Source: a virus
IMG/VR virus record: IMGVR_UViG_3300024496_000013
Location: 86,708-150,707 of that record
DNA: 64,000 nt
Reading direction: 5' to 3' (one strand)
Shown: positions 24,838 through 61,641 of the stretch, in pieces
Layout of the letters: every line of letters starts with the position of its first letter
Numbering within the stretch: the first letter of the stretch is position 1
Translations under genes and position numbers: made by a program
Notes under the pieces: generated by a model
What the model was told of the DNA's origin: nothing
What the model saw: the letters and a program-made list of their open reading frames with translations, nothing else
Database searches by the model: none

Positions 24838-24845
24838 TATGTATC
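24838..24845 (-). promoter_or_regulatory. Variant late promoter (GATACATA) at leaderless spacing
   Basis: On the minus strand GATACATA ends five bases before the ATG of the Nudix-like gene and overlaps the stop of gp15. It has two mismatches to TATAAATA. No ribosome-binding site lies between it and the ATG. Confidence 0.4.
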
Positions 24846-26298
24846 AGGGTTCTAAAATCATTCTCCAGAAACCGGATTGATACTCACCTTCGAATGATCT
24901 TAGCCACTGTACACCGTCCCACTTGTATTGGATCTTGGTTTTAAGATTTTGTAAGTAACGAATATTTGGATCCTCGGCAGACGCAAAGATCACATTCCAC
25001 CGATTGCCGTTCCACTCTATAATATCGTTGGCATTTGCGACTAAATCTTGATTAGATGTTCCTTTCCAAGCATCAGCACCATCAGTATTGATTTCAGATC
25101 CTATATCTTCTAGTATAAGATATCTAGTACCTGTTGGAATGTTTGCTTTTCCTTCCCAAAAAGTCAAGGGATTAAATGTTTGAGGATTGATAATTCCAGT
25201 CACATAAGGTATATCAGAATCGTTAGTTGGCAACGTATCCGCAAAGAAGTTGATTACTAGGTAAGTTGGATCAAGCTCGTTGATCGTAAATGTACCAACA
25301 ATTTCATAGCCTGTTTGTTGTAAAAATCTAATTTGGCTGATTCCTGCCTGATATCCGGGATCTCTCTGTAAAATTATTTCCCAGTTTAATTTTTCACCGC
25401 TGTGTACCGGAATGTTTATTAACCCACCTTCGGTAATTTCTGTAGGATCTATTATGCTAAGATAATATTGTCCAGTATCGACTCCTGTGACAGCTAGACT
25501 AGATAGTAACAATACTTTGAATCTATCAGGAGACAATACTAAACTCTTACCTCCTATATTTGGTTCGTCTGAATTATAAACTATATCATTTAAAGTCTTA
25601 AGACTACCATCCGAATTCATAACATTCATAACAATACTTTTGACAACGCCTAATTTCTTGACTTTGGCTGGCGGTGAAATAAACACAGGCATTTCAAAAT
25701 CTAATGAACACACATCTATATCCTGTTCCGTGCCTTGAGGTATAGTCCTGCTACTAAAAGAAACATTATTCAGCATCACAGTGCTCAAACTGGTCCAGTC
25801 GATATAGTTGTCTGTGAATTGTACTTCTAGACTAGGGTTGAACAATACTAAAATTTGTTCTAGTATCTGTAGTTTTTGATCAGTATTACTAGTCCAGATG
25901 TCTGCCTTGACAGTCATCTTATATGGAGTAGGCATAAGTCTTTCTACAGTATATCCTCCACCTTGTGCGTTATTGTATTCTATAACATTATTTCCGTTTT
26001 CATCAGTAACTGTACCGTAATCTCTTTCTCTGATATTAACTTTCGAAACAAAAGATGCATCCGATAATCTTGCTGTGTCTAATTCTAATGCGGTGACATA
26101 ACATGATATTTTAGGTACACTAGGCATCTTATTCTCAGAATTTTCTCTGATAATATTGGCTACCTGTCTGCTTAGATCACCGTAAGACACTGGTACTTGT
26201 TTCAACGTTCCGTCACCGGCTTGATATTTGAAACCGATAAAAATACGCATGAACTGTGTTATGAAACGTCTTATCTGTCCGTCGTAGAAAAAATCCAT
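24844..26298 (-). CDS. gp15: Tail completion / sheath-stabilising protein gp15
   Basis: The N-terminal half of this 484-residue protein follows the order of T4 gp15, which caps the tail and joins it to the neck: FFYDGQIRRFITQFMRIF, a VPVSYGDLSRQVANI strand, then VPKISCYVTALELDTAR. It continues with PTPYKMTVKADIWTSN and LEQILVLFNPSLEVQF, ending the core near FEMPVFISPPAKV (about residue 213). T4 gp15 is 272 residues. The extra 200 or so residues here are beta-rich and include an end WDGVQWLRSFEGEYQ. The start overlaps the upstream stop (TAATG), so translation is coupled to the gp14-like gene. Confidence 0.85.
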   Translation of the reverse strand: MDFFYDGQIRRFITQFMRIFIGFKYQAGDGTLKQVPVSYGDLSRQVANIIRENSENKMPSVPKISCYVTALELDTARLSDASFVSKVNIRERDYGTVTDENGNNVIEYNNAQGGGYTVERLMPTPYKMTVKADIWTSNTDQKLQILEQILVLFNPSLEVQFTDNYIDWTSLSTVMLNNVSFSSRTIPQGTEQDIDVCSLDFEMPVFISPPAKVKKLGVVKSIVMNVMNSDGSLKTLNDIVYNSDEPNIGGKSLVLSPDRFKVLLLSSLAVTGVDTGQYYLSIIDPTEITEGGLINIPVHSGEKLNWEIILQRDPGYQAGISQIRFLQQTGYEIVGTFTINELDPTYLVINFFADTLPTNDSDIPYVTGIINPQTFNPLTFWEGKANIPTGTRYLILEDIGSEINTDGADAWKGTSNQDLVANANDIIEWNGNRWNVIFASAEDPNIRYLQNLKTKIQYKWDGVQWLRSFEGEYQSGFWRMILEP

Positions 26299-27620
26299 TA
26301 TTCGTCTGCCTTGGGTCTAAGAGCTTTTGACAGGCTCTGTTTTTCTTTGATAGTTTTACCGTTGATCACGGTAGTTTTTTCGTTATTAATAAATGTACCT
26401 TTTTGGTTCAGTCTTACTTTATCGGTATCAGTAGTGTCAGAGAAACCTGTTTCGCTGACGGTCATCCTTACGTTGTCTGAGTATCTGACCCAATTTCTTC
26501 CATCGTATCTAAACAATCTCTTAGGAAAGTAATCTGTTCGCAAACAATATTGTCCAGGAACAGGATTAGCTGGAAAATAGATACCGCTGGTAAAAGCAGC
26601 ACCATTGGGCGGCAGTCCTTCCTCGAGGTACTGTTGATATCCTGGAGCTACAGGGTGTGCTACTATCATGCTGGCATCGTCATAAGTTTCTGATGCCGGC
26701 ACTGTAGTAGTATCAACTGTTTGTAGTGCTATCCTTCCTGTCTCTGGATCTACAGGAACAGTATAATATGTAGTAGTATCATACCCGGCTTTAGGTACAT
26801 CTAGTTCTGCTTGTTCAAGCACGGCTTGAGTTATACCAAGTTCAGTTTTGTAAGTACTAGTCACATCTCTGAGACTGTCTGCCAGTTTATAATAATTTGT
26901 GTTTGGCGGCGCGATATCTGTTACAGGAGCAGTTACGGTATATTTTTTACCATCTGGACCTGTTACAACATCGCCGATCTGATAGGTATAACCAGGACGA
27001 TACACACCTACATCGCTGTCTGTGTCGGCTATACCGTCTAGTATCTGTTTGAATTCTTGGCTGTCTACCAGTGGAGTACATTTGGCACGATACAAGTGTG
27101 GGTACCAAGTTACTGAAAATCCCTGTGCTGCTCTATTAACTTCTTGAATAACATAAAATCTTTTGAGAGCAAACTTAAGATCGTTAAGAGCATGATAATC
27201 TTTAAGGTGTGGCAATTCTAGTACATCGCCTGGCATAATCTTCCTGCCTAATTTTTCCACAGTATCATTGATGTGGAATGTAATGAATACCGTGTCGTTT
27301 TGTAAAAATAAACCAAATTGACTGAGATTAAAATCTATATCCTGTATATTGTAATGACCTCGCAAAATGTAAACATTAGGGTCATATTTTCTATCTCTGT
27401 TTTCTAAAAACAGCAAATCTTGTATATGCGTTTCAGGAGTAGAAGTTCCTGTATAATTAGGTAAACTAGGGCTGCTTTCCCCAGGCAATGGATCTCCAGG
27501 ACCGGCATATTTGTGTACTAGAACATCCGTACCGCCAACTTGGAACATCTCCCAAATATTGCGGTCAAAAAACTTGTAATCGTTGCCTTTTTCGGGCTTG
27601 TATAAACTGAGTCTTGGCAT
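26298..27620 (-). CDS. Neck protein, gp14-like
   Basis: I place the start at ATG 27620 (440 residues, MPRLSLYKPEKG) rather than the in-frame ATG at 27662. The former lies just after a late promoter box and does not run into the divergent gene at 27654. The motif GDVLELPHLKDYHALNDLKFALKRFYVIQE, then GFSVTWYPHLYRAKC (residues about 128-180) resembles T4-like gp14 neck proteins, where a beta-rich core joins head to tail. The C-terminal half holds Pro/Gly-rich beta repeats (LRTDYFPKRLFRYDGRNWVRY). It precedes gp15, as expected for head-tail joining proteins. The gp14 assignment is moderate. Confidence 0.6.
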   Translation of the reverse strand: MPRLSLYKPEKGNDYKFFDRNIWEMFQVGGTDVLVHKYAGPGDPLPGESSPSLPNYTGTSTPETHIQDLLFLENRDRKYDPNVYILRGHYNIQDIDFNLSQFGLFLQNDTVFITFHINDTVEKLGRKIMPGDVLELPHLKDYHALNDLKFALKRFYVIQEVNRAAQGFSVTWYPHLYRAKCTPLVDSQEFKQILDGIADTDSDVGVYRPGYTYQIGDVVTGPDGKKYTVTAPVTDIAPPNTNYYKLADSLRDVTSTYKTELGITQAVLEQAELDVPKAGYDTTTYYTVPVDPETGRIALQTVDTTTVPASETYDDASMIVAHPVAPGYQQYLEEGLPPNGAAFTSGIYFPANPVPGQYCLRTDYFPKRLFRYDGRNWVRYSDNVRMTVSETGFSDTTDTDKVRLNQKGTFINNEKTTVINGKTIKEKQSLSKALRPKADE

Positions 27621-27627
27621 AGTATTA

Positions 27628-27635
27628 TATTTACC
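27628..27635 (-). promoter_or_regulatory. Late promoter (GGTAAATA) for the gp14-like operon
   Basis: On the minus strand GGTAAATA ends seven bases before the ATG at 27620, giving a predicted leader of only about two bases. It stands back to back with the late promoter of the divergent gp13-like gene. Confidence 0.55.
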
Positions 27636-27640
27636 GCCAC

Positions 27641-27648
27641 GATAAATA
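27641..27648 (+). promoter_or_regulatory. Leaderless late promoter (GATAAATA) for the gp13-like gene
   Basis: GATAAATA-ACAGT-ATG places the start codon exactly five bases after the box. In T4 the transcript starts six bases after the last base of the box, which is here the A of the ATG. No Shine-Dalgarno lies between. Confidence 0.7.
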
Positions 27649-27653
27649 ACAGT

Positions 27654-28418
27654 ATGAGCCAACTAGATGAAGAAAAACAGAAGGTCTATGACTATTGTAA
27701 GACCATGCTGGGCGACGGCATGATCGACGTCGAACTAGATCCTATACACTATCAAACAGCCCTTGATAGGTCATTAGCTATTTTTAGGCAAAGATCGGAC
27801 AATTCTGTAGAAGAATCTTTCGCATATCTAACGCTGGAAATAGACAAAAACGAGTACATACTGCCTAAAGAAATACAGGTAGTACGTGAAATCTATAGGC
27901 GTTCGATAGGTTCTAGATCCGGCGGCGGCACGGGAGGCACAGTATTTGAACCATTCAATCTAGCCTATACAAATACCTATCTATTAAGCTCGACAAACAT
28001 GGGCGGTCTTCTAACTTATGAACTGTTTGCTCAATATCAAGAACGTGTGGGTAAGATGTTCGGTAGCTTCATACAGTTTACATGGCATCCACAAACGCAC
28101 AAACTGACTATACACCAAAGACCGCGTTCTATGGAACAAGTCATGTTATGGGTTTACAATACTCGCCCAGATCATGCTATCTTGACAGATACGTATGCTA
28201 ACATATGGATCAAAGATTACACACTAGCTAACTGTAAAATGATGCTAGGACAAGCACGTGAAAAATTCCAAACTATCGCAGGCCCAGGCGGCGGAACCAG
28301 CCTAAACGGGCAAGCATTAAAACAAGAAGCACAAGCAGATATCGAACGACTGACAGCAGAACTGGTCAACTTTGTACCAGGCACTGCTATGGCCGGATAT
28401 ACATTCGTTATTGGTTAA
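27654..28418 (+). CDS. Neck / head-completion protein, gp13-like
   Basis: This 254-residue protein opens KVYDYCKTMLGDGMIDVELDPIHYQTALDRSLAIF. The order YC-(x)-LG, then V-E-(L)-x-P, then a helix of a small adaptor domain is the N-terminal pattern of T4 gp13-type neck proteins and their marine relatives. The middle (FGSFIQFTWHPQTHKLTIHQRP) is beta-rich and the end is helical with Ala/Glu repeats. It is divergent from the gp14-like/gp15 operon and next to gp1, so all neck genes sit together. A connector role at the head-tail joint is the best reading; assignment between gp13 and another neck protein is not certain. Confidence 0.6.
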   Translation: MSQLDEEKQKVYDYCKTMLGDGMIDVELDPIHYQTALDRSLAIFRQRSDNSVEESFAYLTLEIDKNEYILPKEIQVVREIYRRSIGSRSGGGTGGTVFEPFNLAYTNTYLLSSTNMGGLLTYELFAQYQERVGKMFGSFIQFTWHPQTHKLTIHQRPRSMEQVMLWVYNTRPDHAILTDTYANIWIKDYTLANCKMMLGQAREKFQTIAGPGGGTSLNGQALKQEAQADIERLTAELVNFVPGTAMAGYTFVIG

Positions 28419-28425
28419 ACCACAC

Positions 28426-28454: not shown

Positions 28455-28475
28455 ATACTTTAAACAGGGGGCTCT

Positions 28476-29156: not shown

Positions 29157-29406
29157 GATTGCTAGGGCGGCAATTATCGAGATTTTCGTCTATATGATAG
29201 ACCGCAAAAACTTCTTTGTGAGGAGATTTAAATCCGCATCGATCACACTGAAGTTTCAAACGGTACCCTGCTCTATACCATCTAGGGATACCGTGATTTT
29301 TTCCATGCTTTAGGCAAATTTCACATAGTGACCTATAATAGGTCTTGCCATTTTTATGGTAGTTGACTGCTGCCGGCCTAAATCCGCAGCTACAAAGCGG
29401 TCTCAT
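29071..29406 (-). CDS. HNH-like zinc-ribbon protein
   Basis: This 111-residue protein has six or more cysteines in pairs (LCSCGF, CEICLKHG, CDRCGF, CANCQ) and a core H-x-x-x-x-N-N/D-C pattern (YHIDENLDNCRPSNLKSVCANCQ, about residues 71-93). This matches small HNH-endonuclease-type proteins common in T4-like genomes. It ends RQGDLTPDF, as in related phage proteins, which supports the long 3' overlap with gp1 being real. The start is fixed by a late promoter box five bases upstream. It may nick DNA or be a packaging helper; activity is not assured because the first His of the motif is not certain. Confidence 0.65.
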   Translation of the reverse strand: MRPLCSCGFRPAAVNYHKNGKTYYRSLCEICLKHGKNHGIPRWYRAGYRLKLQCDRCGFKSPHKEVFAVYHIDENLDNCRPSNLKSVCANCQRVLHKENVRWRQGDLTPDF

Positions 29407-29411
29407 AAAAA

Positions 29412-29419
29412 TATTTACC
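29412..29419 (-). promoter_or_regulatory. Leaderless late promoter (GGTAAATA), minus strand
   Basis: GGTAAATA-TTTTT-ATG on the minus strand gives the same 5-base spacing seen at other late genes. No ribosome-binding site is present between box and ATG at 29406. Confidence 0.65.
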
Positions 29420-29512
29420 CTTTTCTACCCCTTTAGAACTAGTTATAAAGGTACATTTTCTCCAAAACACGCTAAATATTTTAACAAGATTTAACCTTCA
29501 GGAGATAACGGA

Positions 29513-32911: not shown

Positions 32912-32912
32912 G

Positions 32913-32942: not shown

Positions 32943-32950
32943 GATAAATA
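32943..32950 (+). promoter_or_regulatory. T4-type late promoter (GATAAATA) for gp19, with leader
   Basis: GATAAATA is followed by a leader of about 16 bases with CGGAG ahead of the ATG at 32973. This is one of the leadered late promoters, at a gene needed in high copy number. Confidence 0.65.
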
Positions 32951-33636: not shown

Positions 33637-33668
33637 AAAAAGCCCAGCTTAAAACCTGGGCTTTTTTT
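33637..33668 (+). terminator. Intrinsic terminator after gp19
   Basis: AAGCCCAG (33640-33647) pairs with CTGGGCTT (33656-33663), followed by seven T. The A-run before the stem extends the pairing. Confidence 0.9.
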
Positions 33669-33671
33669 ATT

Positions 33672-33679
33672 AATAAATA
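33672..33679 (+). promoter_or_regulatory. Leaderless late promoter (AATAAATA)
   Basis: AATAAATA-ATGTT-ATG: the start codon at 33685 is five bases after the box, at the predicted first base of the transcript. It follows the gp19 terminator directly. Confidence 0.7.
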
Positions 33680-33684
33680 ATGTT

Positions 33685-34803
33685 ATGGCAAACTATTTCA
33701 CACGATTCTTAGTCGGTCTAGGACAAGGACTAACAAACCCCAAAGGCAACATGGGGGACTTCCAACATGCATCTAGAGTATTTGTAGATAATACGTTCCG
33801 TCTAGCACCAAGGACTAAATTTACATTTCATGTATACCTTGATATAAATCCTCTAGCTCTACAAGCTTCTAATTGGAAAGCACAGCATCATAAAGAAGCA
33901 GGAATGTTAGTAAAAACAGCCGACCTTCCTAAATTTACATTACAAACAGAAGTCAAAAATCAGTATAATAAAAAGAAAATAGTTTACAAAGACATCACAT
34001 ACGATCCAGTTAATATCACGTTCCATGACGATAATCTAGGTCTTATAAATTCTTTATGGGCACAGTATATGGCCTATATCAGTCCCGATCGACTAAATCC
34101 TAGAGCAGCGTATAACGCAAAATCTATTAATGTATATAGATCTACAGGACAAGGATCAGTAACAGCCGACGAAGCCAGGGATGGCGCAACTACGACAGGC
34201 AGTACTGGGGGCGGATTTGATTTTTATAGATACGGTCTAGACAAGGACGGATACACAGAACCGTTCTTTAGATCGATTACCATTTATACATTAGCAAGAA
34301 AACGATTCAACAGTTATACGTTGGTTAATCCTATGATAACCTCGTGGACTACTGGTCAGATGGATTATAACCAAAGCAATGGTATGAACGAAATGACCAT
34401 GAGCTTACAGTATGAAACTGTTTTTTATGGTTATGGAACTGTCACCAGGGGAGTAGAACCAAATGGCTTTGCTGACCTACATTATGACACCGCACCTAGC
34501 CCGTTGACTATAGGTGGTGGTGGCACCAGCACTGTTTTTGGACCAAATGGTGTCCTTGGAGGATTATATGGTTCAGGACTCGCCGGAGCGCAACTGATAT
34601 TCAGGAATGATTTTGGAAATATCAACGGAACACCAAACTTCTTCGGTGCAGCCATTAATGCTATTAATACCTATAGAAGTCTTTCTAATATTAACCTCAA
34701 TACTATCAAGCAAGAAGCTGTAAACATACTAACAGTGCCTAACAATTATGTCAATAATTTAGGACCATTGCCTGGGGTAGTTATTAATTCAGGACCAAGA
34801 TAA
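33685..34803 (+). CDS. Second tail-tube-fold protein (gp19/gp54-like)
   Basis: The core of this 372-residue protein (residues about 75-240) has tube-like order: MLVKTADLPKFTLQTEVKNQYN, KKIVYKDITYDPVNITFHDDNLGLINSLWAQYM, then FFRSITIYTLARKRF, NPMITSWTTGQMDY and MTMSLQYETVFYG. This is the pattern of tube-fold proteins that join baseplate to tube, such as T4 gp54 or gp48, and of long phage tube proteins. The Gly-rich C-terminal tail (about 270-372) lacks the core. It sits between gp19 and gp4. I favour a tube-initiation or tube-end protein over a second major tube protein, but I cannot choose from sequence alone. Confidence 0.6.
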   Translation: MANYFTRFLVGLGQGLTNPKGNMGDFQHASRVFVDNTFRLAPRTKFTFHVYLDINPLALQASNWKAQHHKEAGMLVKTADLPKFTLQTEVKNQYNKKKIVYKDITYDPVNITFHDDNLGLINSLWAQYMAYISPDRLNPRAAYNAKSINVYRSTGQGSVTADEARDGATTTGSTGGGFDFYRYGLDKDGYTEPFFRSITIYTLARKRFNSYTLVNPMITSWTTGQMDYNQSNGMNEMTMSLQYETVFYGYGTVTRGVEPNGFADLHYDTAPSPLTIGGGGTSTVFGPNGVLGGLYGSGLAGAQLIFRNDFGNINGTPNFFGAAINAINTYRSLSNINLNTIKQEAVNILTVPNNYVNNLGPLPGVVINSGPR

Positions 34804-35186: not shown

Positions 35187-35626
35187 TGCCTAGATTTGCC
35201 CAAGGTCACTTTACTATGAAAAACCCCGATAAGTATATCGGGAAAAAAACTCCACTAGCACGTAGCAGTTGGGAGTTTGTTTTTATGAAAATGCTAGATG
35301 AGCATCCAGGTGTACAAAATTGGGCTAGCGAAAGTATACAGATACCCTATAGGGATCCATTAACTGGTAGATATACGATTTATGTTCCTGATTTTTTTAT
35401 AGTTTATGTAGATAAAGATAAAAAGAAACATGCTGAGCTTGTAGAAATAAAACCAGCCAGCCAAACACTAAGAGAAAAAGTGGGCAAGAGTGTGTTTAAT
35501 CAAGCACAGTTTATCAAAAATCAAGCCAAATGGGAAGCAGCTAATGCTTGGTGTAGACAGCAAGGGATACGTTTCCGTGTAGTTAATGAGGGCGATATTT
35601 TCCATCAGGGCTCCAAAAAACGATAA
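35186..35626 (+). CDS. gp4: Head completion protein gp4 (nuclease-like)
   Basis: This 146-residue protein matches the length of T4 gp4 (150). The motif order G-x-F-x(2)KNPDKYIGKKTPLARSSWEFVFMKMLDEHPGVQNWASESIQIPY, then YVPDFFIVYVDK and ELVEIKPASQT is that of T4 gp4, and the D...E-x-K signature resembles a PD-(D/E)xK nuclease core (Asp around 71, Glu-x-Lys around 90). gp4 seals or trims DNA-filled heads before tail joining. The start overlaps the upstream stop (TGATG). Confidence 0.88.
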   Translation: MPRFAQGHFTMKNPDKYIGKKTPLARSSWEFVFMKMLDEHPGVQNWASESIQIPYRDPLTGRYTIYVPDFFIVYVDKDKKKHAELVEIKPASQTLREKVGKSVFNQAQFIKNQAKWEAANAWCRQQGIRFRVVNEGDIFHQGSKKR

Positions 35627-35629
35627 GTA
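35622..35629 (+). promoter_or_regulatory. Possible variant late promoter (GATAAGTA) for gp16
   Basis: GATAAGTA overlaps the gp4 stop codon and ends five bases before the gp16 ATG, matching TATAAATA at six of eight positions with the same spacing as the clear leaderless promoters. Confidence 0.4.
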
Positions 35630-35634
35630 ATTGT

Positions 35635-36108
35635 ATGACTAAGAAATTAGAAGAATTGTTCAATTTAGAAGAGTCTTTGCCAGCAAACGTAGAAACACCA
35701 GAAGCTAGCAAGGATAATATCACTTCGTTAGAACGCAGCTATAAAGAAGTAGAGCAGATAGCATCTACACTGCCTGCTATTGATGATTTAGAAAGCCTAG
35801 ACGAAAGCGAATTAGATTCGTTAGCTAAAAAAGCAGAAACTGCCTATGACGATCTAATGGATTTGGGCATGAACGTAGAAGTACGCTACAGCGGACGTAT
35901 ATTTGAAGTAGCAGGTACTATGCTTAAGAATGCTATAGATGCCAAGGCTGTTAAGATCAATAACAAACTAAAAGCTGTAGATCTCAAGCTGAAAAAGCTG
36001 AAAATTGACAGAGATTCCGGTGATGAAGAACCGGGCATGATGAATGGGCAAGGATTTGTTATCACTGATCGTAATGCCTTGCTCAAAAAACTAAGCGGAA
36101 AAGAATAA
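35635..36108 (+). CDS. gp16: Terminase small subunit gp16
   Basis: This 157-residue helical protein, close to T4 gp16 (164), recognises phage DNA and stimulates the gp17 motor. The N-terminus KKLEELFNLEESLP is typical of marine gp16 proteins. The central coiled-coil (LDSLAKKAETAYDDLMDLGMNVEVRYSGRIFEVAGTMLKNAIDAKAVKINNKLKAVDLKLKKLKIDRD) and the end DRNALLKKL follow the family order. It precedes gp17 with two genes between them. A variant late promoter box may drive it. Confidence 0.78.
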   Translation: MTKKLEELFNLEESLPANVETPEASKDNITSLERSYKEVEQIASTLPAIDDLESLDESELDSLAKKAETAYDDLMDLGMNVEVRYSGRIFEVAGTMLKNAIDAKAVKINNKLKAVDLKLKKLKIDRDSGDEEPGMMNGQGFVITDRNALLKKLSGKE

Positions 36109-36111
36109 ATA
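36104..36111 (+). promoter_or_regulatory. Leaderless late promoter (AATAAATA) that fixes a start codon
   Basis: AATAAATA-TGAGT-ATG: the box ends five bases before ATG 36117. The earlier in-frame ATG at 36111 overlaps the box itself, so it cannot be on the transcript; this decides the start. Confidence 0.65.
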
Positions 36112-36116
36112 TGAGT

Positions 36117-36692
36117 ATGAAATCACTAAAAGACTATCTTACAGAAAGCCAAAAAACTTACAGTTTCCGTATCAAAGTAGCTGGTAAGTATAATGAAGGT
36201 TTCGTTGAAGCTGCTAAACAGGCTATGAGCAAGTATGGTTGCGCAAAGTTTGAAAAAGTCAGCGATATTCCTATTGCTAACAAGCATTTGGATTTTCCAC
36301 AGCTAGAAAATATAGATGTGTCTGTATACGAAACTGATTGTACATATCCTGTAACACCTATCGAAATTTCTGCGTTACTACACGAAGTAACTAAAATCCC
36401 AGAAGTGTATTTCAAAGTTAGAAACCTAGGTGATACTACAGACATCTATATTCCTGTAGATGCGCAAAAGAGTGGTAAAGCTCTATTAGATGATCCAGAA
36501 TACAAAGAACATCCCAAGTTTGCTTCAAAAGATTACTTCGGTGATGATTTCAACAGATCGTTCTTGAAAGACCTAGCCAAGCAAAGCAAGGCACAGAAAA
36601 AAGAAATAGGCCAGAACGAAGAATACAAATTACCAAAAACTAAAGCAGATAAGGCAGGTGTATCTAGTCCTATCTCAAGGAGTCCTAGATGA
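36117..36692 (+). CDS. Conserved phage protein, gp16-gp17 interval
   Basis: Starting at ATG 36117 (191 residues) the protein begins MKSLKDYLTESQKTYSFRIKVAGKY, as expected for small T4-like structural proteins that open MKxLKxYLxE. It then has two alternating alpha/beta units (SKYGCAKFEKVSDIPIANK; VTPIEISALLHEVTKIPEVYFKVRN) ending in a charged tail KADKAGVSSPISRSPR. I recognise the type from other T4-like phages but know no function. It overlaps the next gene by four bases. The late promoter suggests a virion role. Confidence 0.62.
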   Translation: MKSLKDYLTESQKTYSFRIKVAGKYNEGFVEAAKQAMSKYGCAKFEKVSDIPIANKHLDFPQLENIDVSVYETDCTYPVTPIEISALLHEVTKIPEVYFKVRNLGDTTDIYIPVDAQKSGKALLDDPEYKEHPKFASKDYFGDDFNRSFLKDLAKQSKAQKKEIGQNEEYKLPKTKADKAGVSSPISRSPR

Positions 36693-37222: not shown

Positions 37223-37250
37223 AAATAGGCCCATTAGGGCCTATTTTTTT
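37223..37250 (+). terminator. Intrinsic terminator before gp17
   Basis: AAATAGGCCC pairs with GGGCCTATTT over an ATTA loop, followed by T7. It separates the gp16 unit from the gp17 promoter that begins two bases later. Confidence 0.92.
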
Positions 37251-37251: not shown

Positions 37252-37259
37252 ATTAAATA
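37252..37259 (+). promoter_or_regulatory. Leaderless late promoter (ATTAAATA) for gp17
   Basis: ATTAAATA-TAGTC-ATG: five-base spacing to the gp17 start at 37265, immediately after the upstream terminator's T-run. No Shine-Dalgarno lies in the gap. Confidence 0.65.
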
Positions 37260-37264
37260 TAGTC

Positions 37265-38854: not shown

Positions 38855-38860
38855 TAAATA
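38853..38860 (+). promoter_or_regulatory. Leaderless late promoter (GATAAATA)
   Basis: GATAAATA-TTAAC-ATG: the box overlaps the gp17 stop codon and ends five bases before the ATG at 38866. Confidence 0.7.
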
Positions 38861-38865
38861 TTAAC

Positions 38866-44207: not shown

Positions 44208-44215
44208 TATAAATA
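44208..44215 (+). promoter_or_regulatory. Perfect leaderless late promoter (TATAAATA) for the sugar cluster
   Basis: TATAAATA-TTGCT-ATG: an exact T4 consensus box five bases before ATG 44221, with no Shine-Dalgarno. It starts the 44.2-50.2 kb glycan gene cluster, so that cluster is probably expressed late, with the structural genes. Confidence 0.78.
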
Positions 44216-44220
44216 TTGCT

Positions 44221-50181: not shown

Positions 50182-50987
50182 GACACCCAATAGCTTTCTT
50201 GTCTGTTTACCCTAAGATCAGTGATTTTGCTTTTTCCTAAGTCTTTTCTAGCACCTTTTAAATGATCTAGGTAAGCTCCCCAAGCAGAATTTATCAAAGG
50301 ATGACCTTCACCTTTGATCAAACCTCTACTCCAATCGTGTTGTTTGAGAAAAGGCATCCTTAACCTAACGTCATCAAAAACAAAACTGTCATGCCACTCT
50401 GTAAGACGGAAAATTCCGGTCTCTGCGTGGTCATACATCCTTTGAAATTCTCTTAAAAAATCTAATGTTTGGAGATTTTTAAGATTCATAGAATACAACC
50501 CACATTCGGACCATTTATTTTCTCTACCTAAAAAACATATGTCTTGTTCTTTTGGTATCAATTGTTCAATAGCTACTAAATTTATGGGACTATGACATAT
50601 TGTGTCAGCATCCATCCATAATAAAATGTCACTTTCACAGTTTTTAGCACAATGAAATATAGCATAGACCTTATGACTGAATCTTACAGCATCCCATCTA
50701 AAGCCTATACCGGGCTGTTTACCACCTTTACCGATCGGACCTGTAGCAAGGTTTCCTGTAGCTCGTGGATCATCTTTCCATTTTTGTTTGAAGGAAACTA
50801 ATTCAGGACTGCTAGAGTGTAAATCACGTACTACAAGGTTTTTTGCCTGTTCAACTACTTGGCAGTTTTCACTATATGCGTACAGCGTAACTTCTTCGGG
50901 CCAATTTTTTATAAAACTATTGATCATGTTTCGGCCATATTTTTCATAGCCGGATTGATTGAATGTAGTAACCACGGAAATTTTCAT
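50178..50987 (-). CDS. DxD glycosyltransferase on the minus strand
   Basis: This 269-residue protein has the opening MKISVVTTFNQSGYEKYGRNMINSFIKNWP, the DxD site ILLWMDADTICHSPIN (about residue 124) and GLYSMNLKNLQTLDFLREFQRMYD, typical of a GT-A transferase that may act on sugars or peptides. The conserved GFRWDAVRFSHKVYAI lies before the DxD. It is transcribed against the cluster from a perfect late promoter. The 4-base end-to-end overlap suggests tight packing. Confidence 0.7.
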   Translation of the reverse strand: MKISVVTTFNQSGYEKYGRNMINSFIKNWPEEVTLYAYSENCQVVEQAKNLVVRDLHSSSPELVSFKQKWKDDPRATGNLATGPIGKGGKQPGIGFRWDAVRFSHKVYAIFHCAKNCESDILLWMDADTICHSPINLVAIEQLIPKEQDICFLGRENKWSECGLYSMNLKNLQTLDFLREFQRMYDHAETGIFRLTEWHDSFVFDDVRLRMPFLKQHDWSRGLIKGEGHPLINSAWGAYLDHLKGARKDLGKSKITDLRVNRQESYWVS

Positions 50988-50992
50988 ATTGA

Positions 50993-51000
50993 TATTTATA
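50993..51000 (-). promoter_or_regulatory. Perfect leaderless late promoter (TATAAATA), minus strand
   Basis: On the minus strand TATAAATA-TCAAT-ATG repeats the exact geometry of 44208: five bases to the start codon at 50987, with no Shine-Dalgarno. Confidence 0.78.
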
Positions 51001-51025: not shown

Positions 51026-51054
51026 TTGATCTTTGAGGTCAGAGAAGTTAATAT
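51026..51054 (+). promoter_or_regulatory. Possible sigma70-type promoter for the uvsW-linked unit
   Basis: TTGATC and TAATAT are separated by 17 bases. The -10 ends six bases before ATG 51061, so its transcript would also begin at or next to the start codon. Two mismatches in each hexamer make it tentative. Confidence 0.35.
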
Positions 51055-51060
51055 TATATA

Positions 51061-52248
51061 ATGATCTCAACACAACCTATCGATAAAATCTTTGAGGACT
51101 TTGCCAACAGTGTGGTGTTCGGAAACATCCGTGTGGACACCGCAGATGAAAGTCCTGTTTATAGTTTTCATACGGTTGTCACACAAAATACCCCATTAAC
51201 TAAGAAACAGAGTCTCTATGTTTTGAGGTTATTGAGGAAGTATCAGACACCCTACGAACAATACAGTAAAAAATCTATCACACATGCTTTGGCCAATCCT
51301 ACATGGACACATCCATTTAGAGAATTAGATCCTAGCAAGAAAATCTATGTGGAAGAAATTGGAAAAATCACCTGGATTTTTGCTAAATTTCCATATGCCC
51401 TTAAAGAAGAATTTGCCAAGGAATTCAAGGTGTATGGAAAGATGATGTGGGATCCTGAGACCAAATCACAGAGAGCAAGATTGTATGACATCAATGTCGT
51501 ACATCTTCATAGTTTTGGTCAAAAACATGGTTTTGAATTCGATGAAAAATTCCAAAATCTTGTAGAATCGGTTGAAGAAATATGGCAACGTGAAAATGAA
51601 ATCACACGCTCATGTATAGTCGAAAGTGACCATGTCAAGCTGATTAATGCTACAGAATCAGCTCAGGAATATTTTGACAAGAATAAGAAAAACAGCTTAA
51701 AATCTGACCTATTTTTAGCCAGAATGTTAGGTCACAAATTTATCACTGATAAAACACAAAATAGAATAGAAACACTGTGCTCAAAGAAAAAATCTAAATT
51801 TTGGTTTCGAGATATCAATGTTCTCATGTCAGTGGTTAAAGACCTAGACCATCACCCTGTTTTGATATTTTTAGATAGAACCACCGATGTAGTTGACTAT
51901 GCTAAAAAGTTTGTAGAAGCAGGAATAAATGCCGGGATACCAAATGAATATTTCCGAATTCTTTTTAGATTCAAGAACGATGAAGAACAGGGTCAACGGT
52001 TTAACGAATGGATCAAAGAAAACAATCTCGGCGGTGAAGTCGAAACTGGCAAGATATTCATTTGCCAACACAAACCACCAAAATGGATGATTAAGTCTAA
52101 TTTACAGCCATCTTTACTGATAAGTAATACACTCAATCCGCATACAAATACATCAACCATTTCAATGATCAACCAGCACCACACTGTGTTTTACGTTGGT
52201 AACATCAGACCCACTGTGTCGAAGGAGACTGAAGTTGTCCATTTGTAA
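51061..52248 (+). CDS. Conserved phage protein upstream of UvsW
   Basis: This 395-residue protein is of a kind I have seen only in aquatic T4-like phages, next to uvsW. It opens PIDKIFEDFANSVVFGNIRVDTADESPVYSF. The C-terminal half has RDINVLMSVVKDLDHHPVLIFLDRTTDVVDYAKKFVEAG (about 250-295) and a Rossmann-like strand/turn pattern but no Walker motif. Overlap with uvsW by 14 bases points to shared use, perhaps in repair or recombination. The function is not established by the sequence. Confidence 0.62.
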   Translation: MISTQPIDKIFEDFANSVVFGNIRVDTADESPVYSFHTVVTQNTPLTKKQSLYVLRLLRKYQTPYEQYSKKSITHALANPTWTHPFRELDPSKKIYVEEIGKITWIFAKFPYALKEEFAKEFKVYGKMMWDPETKSQRARLYDINVVHLHSFGQKHGFEFDEKFQNLVESVEEIWQRENEITRSCIVESDHVKLINATESAQEYFDKNKKNSLKSDLFLARMLGHKFITDKTQNRIETLCSKKKSKFWFRDINVLMSVVKDLDHHPVLIFLDRTTDVVDYAKKFVEAGINAGIPNEYFRILFRFKNDEEQGQRFNEWIKENNLGGEVETGKIFICQHKPPKWMIKSNLQPSLLISNTLNPHTNTSTISMINQHHTVFYVGNIRPTVSKETEVVHL

Positions 52249-57013: not shown

Positions 57014-57014
57014 C

Positions 57015-57022: not shown

Positions 57023-57043
57023 TGTTTCATACTGGGACTAATC

Positions 57044-57847
57044 ATGCAACTAAATCCGTGTTATTTATATCCAAATAAGATAGACGTTTACACAAATCTC
57101 GAGTCCTGGACTGACAGGAGGCAACGTAAAGTGTATCAAAGAACATTCAAAACTTACCGCGGTTGTGATAATAGATTAGACCTTCAGGTTAGAAACGGTG
57201 ATGAAAAACCTAGAAACATTTCAGGGTACACCGCCGTCTTCAATATAGTAGTTATCGACAGTAACGAATTGATTTTACAAAAAGACTGTGAAATATTAGA
57301 CGCTACTACAGGTAAGATTTATGTTCGTATCACTGAAACAGAAATGCTAACTCTGACGCAGGGTTCATATCTATTTTCTGTATATCTACAAGATGCCAAC
57401 GGTGTTAAGACTCCTTTATACGGTGATAGCCAATATGGTGCTATAGGTAGATTAGAAGTAGTAGCAGACATGGTAGGTGGTCCTGTTGCTAGCCAAACTA
57501 TCAACACTTTCAGTTATCTAGGTCCCGACATACACGGCGATCCTACAGATGTTTACTTCAGCGAAATAGTAGATGCCAAACCGCAATTCAATAATAACTC
57601 CGGACTACACACTTTCGCATTTTATATGACTAACTATTCGGGTGTCGTAACTATACAGGGCACTTTAGAAAATTCTGATAACATATTCGATTGGTGTGAC
57701 GTTGAAACTATCAACTTCAATGATAGCGGTATCGCTTATGCCAATATCACAGGTATATGGAGCCGTCTAAGAATCAAACATATGCCTACACTAGATAGGT
57801 TCGGAAATCCTTTAGGGACTATTGACAAAGTATTGTACAGATATTAA
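57044..57847 (+). CDS. Late-expressed structural/baseplate-type protein
   Basis: This 267-residue protein is beta-rich. Its order (KTYRGCDNRLDLQVRNGDEKPRNISGYTAVFNIV, ATTGKIYVRITETEMLTLTQGSYLFSVYLQDANG, then GRLEVVADMVGGP) resembles phage upper-baseplate or fibre-attachment domains that have an Ig-like first part. The C-terminal half (YMTNYSGVVTIQGTLENS) is a second beta domain. The late promoter agrees with a virion role although the flanking genes are replicative. No receptor-binding motif can be named. Confidence 0.65.
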   Translation: MQLNPCYLYPNKIDVYTNLESWTDRRQRKVYQRTFKTYRGCDNRLDLQVRNGDEKPRNISGYTAVFNIVVIDSNELILQKDCEILDATTGKIYVRITETEMLTLTQGSYLFSVYLQDANGVKTPLYGDSQYGAIGRLEVVADMVGGPVASQTINTFSYLGPDIHGDPTDVYFSEIVDAKPQFNNNSGLHTFAFYMTNYSGVVTIQGTLENSDNIFDWCDVETINFNDSGIAYANITGIWSRLRIKHMPTLDRFGNPLGTIDKVLYRY

Positions 57848-57856
57848 AATGTACTA

Positions 57857-58885
57857 ATGAGTCAGGTAGTCGAACTATTTAGAAAACACTTACCACCTAG
57901 AGCTAAACGTACACCCAGCGGCTGGATGAGCTTTAATGCTGTCTGTTGCCATAATAGAGGTGAAAGCCATGATGATCGCAAAAGAGGTGGGGTGTTATTC
58001 AGCGAAGGTTTTACCTATCACTGTTTTAACTGCGGATTCTCAGCTAGTTGGAAACCAGGCAGACCTGTAAGCCAAAAACTAAGAAATCTAATGACATGGT
58101 TGGGTGCTCCCGACGATGATATCAACAAAATGGTCTTTGAAGCCATGAAGACCGAAGCACCTGACTACACGCCCGAAGCACATCCTATATTTGCTCGTTT
58201 TCCGGAGAAGCAGTTACCTGAAGGCAGCATGACTATCAGCGATTGGATAGAAGCAGAAGTAGATGACGCAGAAGTACAGGAAAAACTAGCACAGGTAGTA
58301 GACTATCTTATACAGCGTGGGTTCGATCCATTAGACAAAAACTTCTGGTGGAGTCCGGCAGATGGATTCAAAGATCGACTGGTCATACCTTTCTTGTATG
58401 ACAGTAAAACTGTAGGCTATACAGCACGTAAAGTCACTAATGGTAAGCCCAAATATCTATCAGACCAAAGTCCTCATTTTGTTTTCAATATCGATTCAGT
58501 CACTGAAGATCAGAGATATGTATTTGTATGTGAAGGACCGTTTGACGCACTCAGTCTAGGCGGCATAGCATTACTACACAACGAAATCAGTGATGAGCAA
58601 GCAAGGCTGATCAACAAGCTGAACAAGACTGTGATAGTGGTGCCTGATCAAGATGAGCCTGGTTTAAAGTTAATCGCTGATGCTGAAAAGAATGGCTACC
58701 ATGTGGCATTTCCTAACTGGGAACAGGGCATAAAAGATGCTGCCGACGCTGTGGAAAAATATGGCTCTATTTTCGTCATTACAGACGCTATCAATACCGC
58801 AGTAGCGGGTAGTGTCAAGATACAGCTATATAAGAAGAAATTAGAAAAACAGCTGAAAAATCCTACGCTACAGGGGTCGCTATGA
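57857..58885 (+). CDS. gp61: DNA primase gp61
   Basis: This 342-residue protein, matching T4 gp61 (342), makes RNA primers with helicase gp41. The N-terminal zinc ribbon has CCHNRGESHDD and YHCFNCGFSASW (about residues 31-72). The toprim domain has YVFVCEGPFDALSLGGIAL (about 218-236; Glu is the catalytic one) and VVPDQDEPG (about 261-269, the metal-binding D-x-D). All expected residues appear present. The C-terminal about 40 residues are basic. gp41 follows two genes later. Confidence 0.9.
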   Translation: MSQVVELFRKHLPPRAKRTPSGWMSFNAVCCHNRGESHDDRKRGGVLFSEGFTYHCFNCGFSASWKPGRPVSQKLRNLMTWLGAPDDDINKMVFEAMKTEAPDYTPEAHPIFARFPEKQLPEGSMTISDWIEAEVDDAEVQEKLAQVVDYLIQRGFDPLDKNFWWSPADGFKDRLVIPFLYDSKTVGYTARKVTNGKPKYLSDQSPHFVFNIDSVTEDQRYVFVCEGPFDALSLGGIALLHNEISDEQARLINKLNKTVIVVPDQDEPGLKLIADAEKNGYHVAFPNWEQGIKDAADAVEKYGSIFVITDAINTAVAGSVKIQLYKKKLEKQLKNPTLQGSL

Positions 58886-58931
58886 CGGTTTTTTCAGCAT
58901 CAAAATAAAATATGGCATTCTAGGAGAGTAT

Positions 58932-59024
58932 ATGTTTAGACTGTTTAAAAAGATCGCTGACTGGTATAAGTGGAGGAAACGGATCAAAGAACTGCGCAAG
59001 CGTGATCCGTTTATCTACAAATGA
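58932..59024 (+). CDS. 30-residue basic protein between gp61 and the carbamoyltransferase
   Basis: This tiny gene starts at ATG 58932 behind TAGGAGAG and encodes a very basic helix rich in Arg/Lys/Trp, MFRLFKKIADWYKWRKRIK... ending RDPFIYK. Its TGA overlaps the next ATG (ATGA at 59021-59024), which strongly supports translation. Peptides with a similar KRDPFIYK end lie in the same region of related phages. It may bind nucleic acid or membrane; the function is unknown. Confidence 0.6.
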   Translation: MFRLFKKIADWYKWRKRIKELRKRDPFIYK

Positions 59025-59983
59025 TCTATTGGGGCATAAACGCACTAAATCATGGCAGCAGTATCGCTGTAGTGGGCGGTGCTAAAAATCTCACATTGAT
59101 CACAGATCAAAACGATAGGCTCAGCAGCAGCATGGTCACAGAAGCGATCAATGCCAGCCACTATCGAGGACCCGAGCGTATATTTTGGTATGAACGCCCC
59201 TGGGTCAAAAAGTTCCGTCAATTGTACGCAGGACAGTATAAAGAATTCTGGGATCGGTCTGTGCTGCCTAGGCGCCATGTCAATGATCTAAACATACGCT
59301 ATGCTCCTATCACATACACACCGCATCATGCCAGCCATGCGGCCGCAGGCTATTACACATCACCATTCAATCACTGTGCTGTGGTAGTACTAGATGCTAT
59401 AGGTGAATTTGAATGCGCCAGTATCTGGGAAGGTCGGCATGGCGAATTGACCAAACTATGGAGCAAGAGCTATCCCAACAGTTTGGGTCTATTTTATTCT
59501 GCGTTCACTGAACTGTTGGGCATGAAACCCATACGTGATGAATATCTACTACAGCAGTTGAGTGAGCAGGGCAACAGATACAAGCACAGTCATCTGATCG
59601 AAAGTTACTTTGACAACAGCCTTTCTGACCCTATAGAAGCTCGTGTGAACTTCCATCTAGGTGTGCCTGATTGGCCTTTTGAAATACGTGAATCAGATCG
59701 AGCAGACATAGCTGCTGGCGTACAGGAAGTGTTTGAAAACCAAGTGATGGATGTCATGCTGCTGGCCAAACGACTGACCAAGGCAGACTGTCTAGTCTAT
59801 ATGGGCGGCTGTGCTTTCAACAGCTTGGCCAACCAACGTGTGGTAGAACCTCTGTTTCCCTATCGTTGGAGCACACCTAATCCGGGCGATGCTTACAGCA
59901 GCCTAGGTGCTGTGCTTTACCATACTAAACATAGAGTGATACTGGAAAAACCTCTTGTAAAACATCTAGAGGTCAGTGTATAA
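59021..59983 (+). CDS. Carbamoyltransferase-type N-terminal domain only
   Basis: This 320-residue protein matches only the ASKHA/Kae1-like half of the NodU/CmcH family: GINALNHGSSIAVVGG, PHHASHAAAGYYTSPF (metal site), VVVLDAIGEFECASIWEG and the end MGGCAFNSLANQRVVEPL with STPNPGDAYSSLGAVLY. The YrdC-like domain that makes carbamoyl-AMP is missing, so it may need a partner such as the full-length enzyme at 11110, or do a different job. It sits between primase and helicase and overlaps the upstream 30-residue gene by four bases. Stretches look more GC-rich than the earlier glycan genes. Confidence 0.75.
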   Translation: MIYWGINALNHGSSIAVVGGAKNLTLITDQNDRLSSSMVTEAINASHYRGPERIFWYERPWVKKFRQLYAGQYKEFWDRSVLPRRHVNDLNIRYAPITYTPHHASHAAAGYYTSPFNHCAVVVLDAIGEFECASIWEGRHGELTKLWSKSYPNSLGLFYSAFTELLGMKPIRDEYLLQQLSEQGNRYKHSHLIESYFDNSLSDPIEARVNFHLGVPDWPFEIRESDRADIAAGVQEVFENQVMDVMLLAKRLTKADCLVYMGGCAFNSLANQRVVEPLFPYRWSTPNPGDAYSSLGAVLYHTKHRVILEKPLVKHLEVSV

Positions 59984-59984
59984 T
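59955..59984 (+). promoter_or_regulatory. Possible sigma70-type promoter for gp41
   Basis: TTGTAA (59955-59960) and a perfect TATAAT (59979-59984) are 18 bases apart, at the end of the preceding gene. The start codon ATG 59991 lies six bases after the -10, so the transcript would be almost leaderless. The -35 has two mismatches. Confidence 0.4.
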
Positions 59985-59990
59985 AATATT

Positions 59991-61418
59991 ATGATTAAGA
60001 ATTACGATTACGATGTACAAAAACTATATCTAGAGATCATGCTCACAGACGCAGAGACTTTCGTGCGTTGCCAGGGCATATTTGACGCTAGCCTGTTTGA
60101 TAGACGTTTACAGGAACCAGCAGAGTTTATTAAAACCTATACAGAACAGTATTCTGTGCTGCCAGATGCTGCCATGGTCAATGCGGCCTGTAAGACAGAA
60201 CTGGCACCTGTAGCAGATCTCAAAGATGGACACATAGATTGGTTCATGGATGACTTTGAACAGTTTATACGACACAAGAGCCTAGAACGTGCCATAATCA
60301 AATCCGCGGATCTGCTGGAAAAGAATGACTATGGTGCTGTGGAAGTCATGATCAAAGAAGCTGTACAGATCGGTCTTGCTCGCGACATGGGCACTGACTA
60401 TTTCGCAGATCCCCGTGCTCGACTGATGGGACTCAAAGACAAGAATGGACAGGTCAGTACAGGTTGGAGCAGCCTAGATCGCAAACTGTTTGGCGGCATG
60501 AATCGCGGAGAGCTGAATATCTTCGCAGGTGGTTCAGGCGCAGGCAAAAGTCTGTTCCTAGCCAACTTGGGCGTGAACTGGGCCTTGAACGGCTTGAATG
60601 TGGTTTATCTAACGCTGGAACTTTCAGAAGCATTGGTCAGTATGCGCATCGATAGTATGCTGACAGGCATCACTACCAAAGAGATCTTCAAGCAGATCGA
60701 TGACGTGGAAATGAAAGTGCGTATCATAGGCAAGAAATCCGGGCGTTTCCAAGTCAAGTACATGCCCTCAGGCAAGACTGCCAATGACATACGTGCTTAT
60801 CTAAAAGAGTATGAAATACAAATGGGCCAGAAAGTGGATGTGCTACTGGTAGACTATCTGGATCTGCTCATGCCCATTTCCAAGAAGATCTCGCCCGCAG
60901 ATCTCTTTATCAAGGACAAGTTTGTCAGTGAAGAACTGCGTAACTTGGCCATGGAAAAGCAGTGCGTGTTCGTCACAGCCGCACAGTTGAATCGGGGTGC
61001 TGTAGAAGAAGTAGAGTTTGATCACAGCCATATTTCAGGTGGACTTAGCAAGATACAGACAGCAGATAACGTGTTTGGTATCTTTACGTCACGTGCCATG
61101 CGTGAGCGTGGACGCTATCAGATACAGCTGATGAAGACTCGTTCGTCTAGCGGTGTTGGACAGAAGCTGGATCTAGAGTTTGACATAGACACTCTGCGCA
61201 TCAGTGACCTGCCCGAAGATCAGCAGACTGCGGATAACAGTCCCAGAACTGGCAGCATCATACAGCAGATCAAGAGCCGAGGCAGCACAGTGGTCGATGA
61301 GGACGGTGTAGTCACAGAAGATCCCACCCGAGGCGCAGAAGTGGGCCGTAGCCGTGCCATAGTGGAAAGTACCAAGTTGAGGCAGTTTATCAACGGACTG
61401 ACAGAAGATGAAGCATGA
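59991..61418 (+). CDS. gp41: Replicative DNA helicase gp41
   Basis: This 475-residue protein, from ATG 59991 rather than the GTG 15 bases earlier, is the T4-like DnaB-type hexameric helicase; T4 gp41 has 475 residues too. Walker A AGGSGAGKSLFLANLG is at about 177-192, and the DnaB motif VVYLTLELSEALVSMRIDSMLTG follows at about 203. VDVLLVDYLDLLMP (Walker B, about 282) and VFVTAAQLNRGA (sensor) are also present. The first about 140 residues are the helical N-terminal collar. It pairs with gp61 upstream to form the primosome. Confidence 0.92.
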   Translation: MIKNYDYDVQKLYLEIMLTDAETFVRCQGIFDASLFDRRLQEPAEFIKTYTEQYSVLPDAAMVNAACKTELAPVADLKDGHIDWFMDDFEQFIRHKSLERAIIKSADLLEKNDYGAVEVMIKEAVQIGLARDMGTDYFADPRARLMGLKDKNGQVSTGWSSLDRKLFGGMNRGELNIFAGGSGAGKSLFLANLGVNWALNGLNVVYLTLELSEALVSMRIDSMLTGITTKEIFKQIDDVEMKVRIIGKKSGRFQVKYMPSGKTANDIRAYLKEYEIQMGQKVDVLLVDYLDLLMPISKKISPADLFIKDKFVSEELRNLAMEKQCVFVTAAQLNRGAVEEVEFDHSHISGGLSKIQTADNVFGIFTSRAMRERGRYQIQLMKTRSSSGVGQKLDLEFDIDTLRISDLPEDQQTADNSPRTGSIIQQIKSRGSTVVDEDGVVTEDPTRGAEVGRSRAIVESTKLRQFINGLTEDEA

Positions 61419-61638
61419 TCGTGTGGAACTGTTTTCTTGGTATCAACAGCAGACAGATACCATAGACGTGCCCTGGGACAGGGTAGAACAGGCCCTGGGC
61501 GATCGCTGGCAGTGGCTACAGCAGCAGCCCCGTCATACCTGCCAAGTCATGGTGGAAAACACACTGGAACAGTATCGTTTGGTAGCGGAATTTTATCAGG
61601 ATCAAAAGCTAGCTGAGTATCACTGCTGTTTCGCATAA
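61408..61638 (+). CDS. Small Trp/Gln-rich protein after gp41
   Basis: This 76-residue protein overlaps gp41 by 11 bases, which supports coupled translation. It is rich in Trp, Gln and His (SWYQQQTDTIDVPW, DRWQWLQQQPRH), helical and close to neutral. I do not recognise a family or motif. It may assist the helicase, but this rests on position only. Confidence 0.55.
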   Translation: MKHDRVELFSWYQQQTDTIDVPWDRVEQALGDRWQWLQQQPRHTCQVMVENTLEQYRLVAEFYQDQKLAEYHCCFA

Positions 61639-61641
61639 ATA
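61634..61641 (+). promoter_or_regulatory. Leaderless late promoter (CATAAATA)
   Basis: CATAAATA-TACTC-ATG: five-base spacing to the start codon at 61647. The box overlaps the stop codon of the previous gene. Confidence 0.68.

Follow-up and report, generated by a model that had tools for sequence, protein, structure and literature searches.

Late transcription in phage T4 starts at gp55-dependent promoters (TATAAATA) that need no −35 element (PMC1524935, PMC2988020). Promoters of this type also depend on gp33 and gp45. The T4 box lies at −13 to −6, making +1 the sixth base past it, a start position that a preliminary description of the DNA analysed here had relied on and that is in print (PMC1524935). 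The window, a stretch of 64,000 nucleotides (nt) corresponding to bases 86708-150707 of the 150,707-base IMG/VR virus record IMGVR_UViG_3300024496_000013 (the remainder of which was analysed along with it), has the core box (TAAATA) and late structural genes in common with T4, and a gp55-type sigma factor is encoded in this phage as well. T4 boxes cluster ~21–29 nt from open reading frames (ORFs) that start with ATG, with no excess at 4–8 nt, which bears out the earlier remark that T4 late messages usually carry leaders. In the window, a set of late genes has the box 5 nt ahead of the ATG; by the T4 geometry +1 would then be the A of the start codon.

Leaderless messages are described elsewhere. 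Most middle and late mRNAs of the lytic Thermus phage phiYS40 are reported to lack leaders (review PMC3594737), as is predicted here for many late messages, and its host group is rich in leaderless genes (PMC3160421). A shift in IF2/IF3 is reported for phiYS40; no IF3_C homolog (phage-encoded IF3) was found in the 15 records searched here. To our knowledge, phiYS40 promoters are not of T4 late type. In Actinobacteria and Deinococcus-Thermus, leaderless genes carry TANNNT about 12 nt before the start, inferred from promoter-to-start distance (PMC3160421); the distance argument is the same as ours, but it concerns cellular genes with a sigma70-type −10 box and no phage late sigma. Mycobacterial leaderless genes are supported by mapped starts (PMC4633059), and accept GTG as well as ATG. 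Among jumbo phages, the distant relatives CBB/GAP32 have the late motif ATAAATA before structural genes (PMC5259590, where the word ‘leaderless’ does not occur in the text searched), but CBB lacks the leaderless geometry, with 8 boxes at 4–6 nt from ATG versus 16 at 10–12 nt. The paper on AR9, a jumbo phage with mapped promoters that are unrelated to those discussed here, states that phage transcripts are often leaderless and gives AR9 leaders of 26–491 nt (PMC5312081). Among the matches listed from open-access full texts, with subscription papers mostly outside, no description of leaderless late genes in T4-like or jumbo phages was found. Each half of the arrangement has precedent (T4-type late promoters, phiYS40 leaderless messages); the two combined in one conserved regulon were not encountered in the literature so covered.

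Short-gap late boxes in the window and in orthologs

Site coordinates refer to the first base of TAAATA, the gap is the number of nt between box and ATG, and ORFs were called mechanically (ATG start, at least 60 codons). All nine TAAATA-N5-ATG sites of the preliminary description were located (plus strand, 27643, 33674, 36106, 37254, 38855, 44210 and 61636; minus strand, 29417 and 50998), each followed by an ORF of at least 111 codons. The expected number is 1.63 (standard deviation 1.21), and none of 100 dinucleotide shuffles reached nine (maximum five). In the whole record 14 of the 57 boxes lie 4–8 nt from an ATG-started ORF (two at 4, ten at 5 and two at 7 nt), versus 1.3 predicted from 14 other hexamers of the same composition (P 1e-10); none lies at 9–13 nt, and 20 ATGs follow at 14–40 nt. 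Shuffles and same-composition hexamers together rule out chance or base composition as the cause of the spacing.

The best reading of this layout, to which we assign a probability of about 0.8, is a set of leaderless late messages. The window would be part of the late region of a T4-related jumbo-type phage, with TAAATA as the expected target of its gp55-type late sigma. In a large fraction of the late genes, transcription would begin on, or within about a base of, the A of the start codon, giving a leaderless mRNA devoid of a Shine-Dalgarno (SD) sequence. Other late genes (sheath, tube) retain the T4 layout, with the box 19–36 nt upstream and an SD. A start on the ATG is inferred from T4 geometry, and translation would then proceed by AUG-dependent leaderless initiation, possibly by 70S ribosomes. 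The sites are as follows.

21675..21688, plus strand: variant box TAATTA, 5 nt, ATG of 21686-22960 (PfkB kinase + cytidylyltransferase, HldE-like)
24830..24843, minus strand: variant box TACATA (24843-24838), 5 nt, ATG of 24446-24832; the weakest site in the set
27618..27633, minus strand: late box, 7 nt, ATG 27620 of gene 26298-27620; divergent from the 27643 box
27643..27656, plus strand: late box TAAATA, 5 nt, ATG of 27654-28418 (neck protein, Ad2-like)
29404..29417, minus strand: late box, 5 nt, ATG of 29071-29406 (weak HNH match)
29473..29478, plus strand: leadered late box of the contrast class, 34 nt from the sheath ATG (29513), SD present
32945..32950, plus strand: leadered late box, 22 nt from the tube ATG (32973), SD present
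33637..33666, plus strand: terminator-like hairpin ending 7 nt ahead of the box of 33685
33674..33687, plus strand: late box, 5 nt, ATG of 33685-34803 (tail-tube-like)
35624..35637, plus strand: variant box TAAGTA, 5 nt, ATG of 35635-36108 (weak small-terminase match)
36106..36119, plus strand: late box, 5 nt, ATG 36117 of 36117-36692; 35635-36108 ends on the TAA of the box
37223..37246, plus strand: terminator-like hairpin ending 7 nt ahead of the terminase box, its T-run ending 3 nt ahead
37254..37267, plus strand: late box, 5 nt, ATG of 37265-38854 (large terminase)
38855..38868, plus strand: late box, 5 nt, ATG of 38866-40524 (virion structural protein); the box abuts the terminase stop
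44210..44223, plus strand: late box, 5 nt, ATG of 44221-44979 (cytidylyltransferase-like + cupin)
50985..50998, minus strand: late box, 5 nt, ATG of 50178-50987
61636..61649, plus strand: late box, 5 nt, ATG of 61647-62027, N-terminus MRAHEFITEAVRG; 61408-61638 ends on the TAA of the box

The three variant boxes (21675, 35624 and 24843-24838) had also been named before and are present, each 5 nt from its ATG. The site at 36106 needs a qualification: box and N5-ATG exist as claimed, but ORF 36111-36692 opens with an earlier in-frame ATG (36111) that overlaps the late box, and the ATG at gap 5 (36117) is its second. The minus-strand box 7 nt from ATG 27620 was missing from the earlier list; an alternative, longer TTG-started ORF for this gene reaches 27662. 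With a terminator-like hairpin standing 7 nt ahead of each box, 33685 and 37265 are unlikely to receive a leader from upstream or read-through transcripts.

Orthologs were taken from 80 loci of the window's clade plus two relatives (G001 and G004), with the best 80 of 573, 516 and 101 relatives per scan retained. Gaps were read only from alignments starting no more than 12 residues from the N-terminus, leaving out orthologs that had no ATG close by; a choice among several candidate ATGs went to one at gap 4–7, a bias toward the leaderless reading. With this proviso, orthologs of seven window genes mostly keep the 5-nt gap, as the proposed comparison of homologous upstream regions required: 27654 (gap 5 in 25 and gap 4 in one of 26 with a start, two more having no ATG), 29406 (gap 5 in 36, gap 4 in one, no box in four of 41), 33685 (gap 5 in 55 and gap 4 in three of 58 with a start), 36117 (gap 5 in 68 and gap 7 in two of 70), the large terminase at 37265 (gap 5 in 60, gap 4 in 16, gap 6 in two, no box in three of 81 with a start), 38866 (gap 5 in 79 and gap 4 in two of 81) and 44221 (gap 5 in 28, gap 26 in one, no box in four of 33). 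For 50987 two orthologs were seen, one at gap 4 and one without a box, and for 61647 a single one, at gap 4. TAAATA is present in 0/67 orthologs of 35635, among which are TAAGTA-type boxes, with T directly before the ATG in 67/67. The other two variant sites gain no support, TAAATA not being found in the one ortholog of 21686 with a start or in either of two of 24832. For sheath the box lies at 31–36 nt in 42/42 orthologs with a start, all with an SD; for tube TAAATA lies at 19–23 nt in 19 of 58 and is not found within 40 nt in 39, with an SD in 58/58. Letters of the spacer drift while the gap stays at 5, and third-codon-position freedom begins straight after the ATG; this alignment used gap-5 rows only (except for 35635), making the box conserved by construction.

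Distribution of the spacing among phages

Enrichment of the short spacing in relatives, which the preliminary description had predicted, was found: the pattern exceeds its reversed control in 10/10 IMG/VR relatives (weakest, 8 vs 4). Boxes at N4-6 outnumber those at N10-12 in 11/11 clade records (14/0, 28/5, 46/3, 24/8, 27/6, 19/8, 19/5, 20/6, 18/1, 11/8 and 23/1). Scored as above, boxes 4–8 nt from an ATG-started ORF make up 28/145 in G001 (P 8e-17), 43/229 in G004 (2e-23), 26/200 in G018 (3e-8), 93/171 in G019 (1e-52), 57/180 in G015 (5e-23) and 19/133 in the isolate XacN1 (9e-6, a value that is too small because the 19 boxes include terminal-repeat copies and are 16 distinct ones). The interval of 9–13 nt is nearly empty (this record 0, G001 3, G004 2, G018 1, G019 1, G015 3, XacN1 0), as would be expected of a promoter starting ~6 nt past its box, which should leave either no leader or one of a length to hold an SD.

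The spacing is not a general T4-like property, a view rejected because T4 (5/225, P 0.54), PA5oct (4/611, 0.94) and S-PM2 (1/171, 0.82) have no 4–8 nt excess. Counts at N4-6/N10-12 are 8/16 in CBB, 9/14 in Vibrio 2.275, 13/15 in RaK2, 9/8 in XaC1, 3/5 in KVP40, 13/21 in P-SSM2 and 7/11 in Melnitz-3; Munch (20/9), Atu_ph07 (25/15) and Phosso (6/2) lean upward but were counted as not shown to have the spacing, because their reversed-pattern controls are 24, 47 and 5.

A terminase tree of 64 of 254 sequences, built by a quick method and with a long-branch warning that includes PA5oct with L363, has a 42-tip clade (SH-aLRT 93, below the 95 mark) in which the terminase is at gap 4–7 in 38/42 tips, the others being PA5oct, L016, L032 and L062; five changes of this trait are needed across all 64 tips. 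Outside the clade the layout is found in G019 (499,572 bases, 57% GC), G015 (578,292 bases, 59% GC) and XacN1, where annotated coding sequence starts agree in three of four examined; RAS14, near XacN1 by terminase, has no excess (15 at N4-8, control 23), and the XacN1 terminase query found no match in viral_contigs. On these comparisons the layout is inherited within a clade, with up to about 90 genes in one genome.

Start position, translation signals and competing explanations

In the 80 loci of the window's clade, T or C directly precedes the ATG in 345/345 gap-5 starts, with mixed bases at the same position behind leadered boxes; a pyrimidine at −1 and a purine at +1 are the usual bacterial start context. 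At SD-leadered promoters, G019 has a purine at box+5 in 20/26 (main leaderless gap 4) and XacN1 at box+6 in 25/34 (leaderless gaps 5–6). The present record has a purine at box+6 in 10/14, and T4, which has no leaderless class, in 23/31. It is suggestive only that the initiator tracks the leaderless gap in two genomes, G019 and XacN1, and this is not general. A gp55-type late sigma is encoded in the present phage (G000:43700-44473, E 5e-79) and in 10/11 and 7/8 records searched, T4, PA5oct, XacN1 and RAS14 included.

With an SD defined as a match of at least 4 to AAGGAGGTGA, the earlier claim that short-gap genes lack one, unlike genes with a distant box, is borne out as a tendency (in this record, 1/12 at gaps 4–6 vs 14/20 leadered). 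Pooled with G001 and G004 the counts are 6/73 leaderless-type vs 82/128 leadered starts (P 1e-15), and they are 6/93 vs 27/48 in G019 and 2/57 vs 37/64 in G015. GTG or TTG starts at gaps 4–6 are absent from this record, G001 and G004, and at gap 5 in the 80 loci they number three vs 345 ATG. Weak 5′ structure was considered as a general mark of leaderless-type genes and rejected, being seen in two of six genomes (G004 and G015).

Several observations weigh against leaderless initiation. At the SD-leadered promoters of three genomes no clear initiator is seen at box+5 (purine in 20/37 in G001, 15/31 in G004 and 19/34 in G015) or box+6 (21/37, 13/31 and 20/34). The pyrimidine before the ATG is lost at gap 5 in the L212 clade (16/56) and not favoured in XacN1 (10/16), and in G019 G precedes the ATG in 45/72 gap-4 starts. 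The L212 clade (60–69% terminase identity, 81 loci) has gaps of 5, 6, 7 and 8 nt in 56, 140, 90 and 72 cases, with eight at 14–35, which means that start shifts or leaders of 1–3 nt exist; L212 itself is one contig of a metagenome-assembled genome binned as Betaproteobacteria TMED41, possibly misbinned, and no host assignment is drawn from it. GTG/TTG starts at gaps 4–6 are rare yet present in G019 (4), G015 (3) and XacN1 (4), and number four vs 383 ATG in the 80 loci. An SD-like match upstream of the ATG in 40/70 orthologs of 36117 and 32/41 of 29406 could be used by a read-through transcript. Low 5′ structure is significant in G004 and G015 and not in this record, G001, G019 or XacN1. PA5oct falls inside the clade on the terminase tree yet lacks the trait, G005 and G006 are weak at N4-6 versus their reversed controls (24/16 and 19/11), and the whole record of G017 has 72 boxes at N4-8 versus 68 in the control and 56 at N10-14, although its terminase is at gap 5. 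The search for gp55 found no match in G018 (130 kb) or G007 (162 kb), both possibly fragments.

Some of these points would also fit a promoter box with starts 1–5 nt upstream of the ATG, giving ultra-short leaders rather than strictly leaderless messages. The gaps of 6–8 nt in the L212 clade and the G at −1 in G019 favour it; the mode of exactly 5, with a pyrimidine at −1 and A at +1, in the window's clade speaks for a start on the ATG itself, and we consider this variant improbable, if the best placed of the alternatives. A little less probable still is that TAAATA acts on the mRNA as an AU-rich, non-SD ribosome-binding element, the spacing reflecting ribosome geometry. Fixed distance and scarcity of SDs would fit equally, but the same box is found at 14–40 nt with an SD and looser spacing (31–36 nt at sheath), terminator-like hairpins stand just ahead of two boxes, TAAATA forms the core of the T4 late consensus in print and the phage encodes a gp55-type sigma, and the near-empty interval at 9–13 nt is explained by a promoter with space left for an SD but not by an RNA signal. 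Least probable of all is translational coupling, in which ribosomes from an upstream gene reinitiate at the nearby ATG and the TAA of the box is that gene's stop: the TAA does end a same-strand frame of 100 or more codons at some boxes (this record 1/14, G001 5/28, G004 5/44, G018 6/26, G019 17/93, G015 10/57, XacN1 4/19), and such a stop lies within −40..+12 of the ATG at more (5/14, 12/28, 15/44, 12/26, 49/93, 25/57 and 13/19, respectively), but most boxes have no such stop, genes behind a terminator or in divergent pairs cannot couple, and coupling has no need for TAAATA at a fixed distance.

Leaderless late initiation thus remains the preferred reading, and the reliance on it for many late genes proposed in the preliminary description receives comparative support, from the enrichment in relatives and the spacing in orthologs. 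If it is correct, many virion proteins across a large group of uncultured jumbo phages are made from mRNAs that are exceptions to SD-based gene finding. Each genome would hold dozens of leaderless genes regulated together, and its leadered genes, served by the same sigma, would be an internal control. Such a natural set lends itself to asking when leaderless translation is favoured, whether infection alters the ribosome or initiation factors, and how the position of a promoter can evolve into a means of controlling translation.

Host-type promoters and an N-terminal tag

Two host-type promoters said to have similar geometry, at 51026 and 59955, are present with the −10 box 6 nt from the ATG, and a third was absent from the earlier list.

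51026..51063, plus strand: TTGATC-17-TAATAT-N6-ATG of 51061-52248
57822..57859, plus strand: TTGACA-17-TAAAAT-N6-ATG of 57857-58885 (Toprim, primase-like)
59955..59993, plus strand: TTGTAA-18-TATAAT-N6-ATG of 59991-61418 (DnaB-like helicase); in frame with a GTG-started ORF at 59976

The promoter of 57857 is stronger than those of 51061 and 59991, and its layout is repeated at genes with similar N-termini in G001 (9504) and G004 (298706); two of the three precede replication-type genes. A scan for at least 5/6 bases of TTGACA and 4/6 of TATAAT gave a −10-to-ATG distance peaking at 6 (to 7) nt, with nine sites at 6 in G004, five in G001, and 13 and 9 in XacN1 (terminal-repeat copies included). 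The peak is less clear in G018 (3 and 3), G019 (4) and G015 (2 and 2), with one site at 6 in the present record, and was not seen in T4 or PA5oct. That host-type promoters share the leaderless distance suggests that these phages or their hosts tolerate leaderless messages in general, and that the device is not confined to late genes. Ribosomal protein bS21 was found in G001, G004 and PA5oct and not in the other 12 of 15 records; it is ruled out as an explanation because PA5oct has it yet lacks the trait. Next to the bS21 gene (G001:292290-292445, G004:33352-33510) lies a gene whose host-type promoter has the leaderless spacing; in G004 this gene is exoribonuclease-like, and the one in G001 has the same N-terminus.

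About a third of the short-gap genes in the two largest contigs begin with a common tag, M[RK]x3-7[LI]xE, present in 33/93 leaderless-type genes vs 38/5,305 other ATG frames in G019 and in 21/57 vs 33/5,768 in G015; P values for these comparisons are too small, because the pattern was defined after viewing the sequences and the other ATG frames hold many false ones. In the present record the counts are 2/14 (window genes 61647 and 36117) vs 8/792, and the tag is weak elsewhere (G001 4/28, G004 4/44, G018 2/26, XacN1 2/19). A fairer control, comparing a looser pattern with leadered starts, gave 37/93 vs 3/48 in G019, 21/57 vs 5/64 in G015 and 2/44 vs 4/53 in G004. No Pfam match was obtained for ten leaderless-type G019 proteins (eight tagged), nor a PHROGs match for five tagged ones, and for one tagged protein viral_contigs gave no relative outside the contig that encodes it. 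An ADP-ribosyltransferase identity, considered for some tagged proteins with YHGT-like strings, is not claimed, given the 0/10 in Pfam. Seven T4 frames fit the tag, two of which are ipII and ipIII, annotated internal virion proteins (MKTYQEFIAEA). The T4 prohead protease cuts after L/I-x-E, and a prohead protease homolog was found in 9/10 records.

A tentative extension, which we hold to be possible but rather doubtful, is that a large share of gene expression, from host-type and late promoters alike, has shifted to leaderless initiation, and that the largest phages carry a ~40-bp cassette on dozens of unrelated genes. The cassette would consist of a late box, 4–5 nt, the ATG and a capsid-targeting tag ending in L/I-x-E, and might make an ORF late-transcribed, SD-free in translation and head-packaged at once.

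Three further features of the region were noted. Divergent gene pairs in which two late boxes lie near each other or overlap, each 4–7 nt from its ATG, are present in the window (27618-27656), G001 (252941-252981) and G004 (281412-281456). The tail sheath (window 29513-32911) is 1,132 amino acids long versus 659 for T4 gp18 (coding sequence 98536-100515). Sugar-nucleotide type enzymes stand behind late-type boxes at 21686-22960 (PfkB kinase fused to cytidylyltransferase) and 44221-44979 (cytidylyltransferase fused to cupin).

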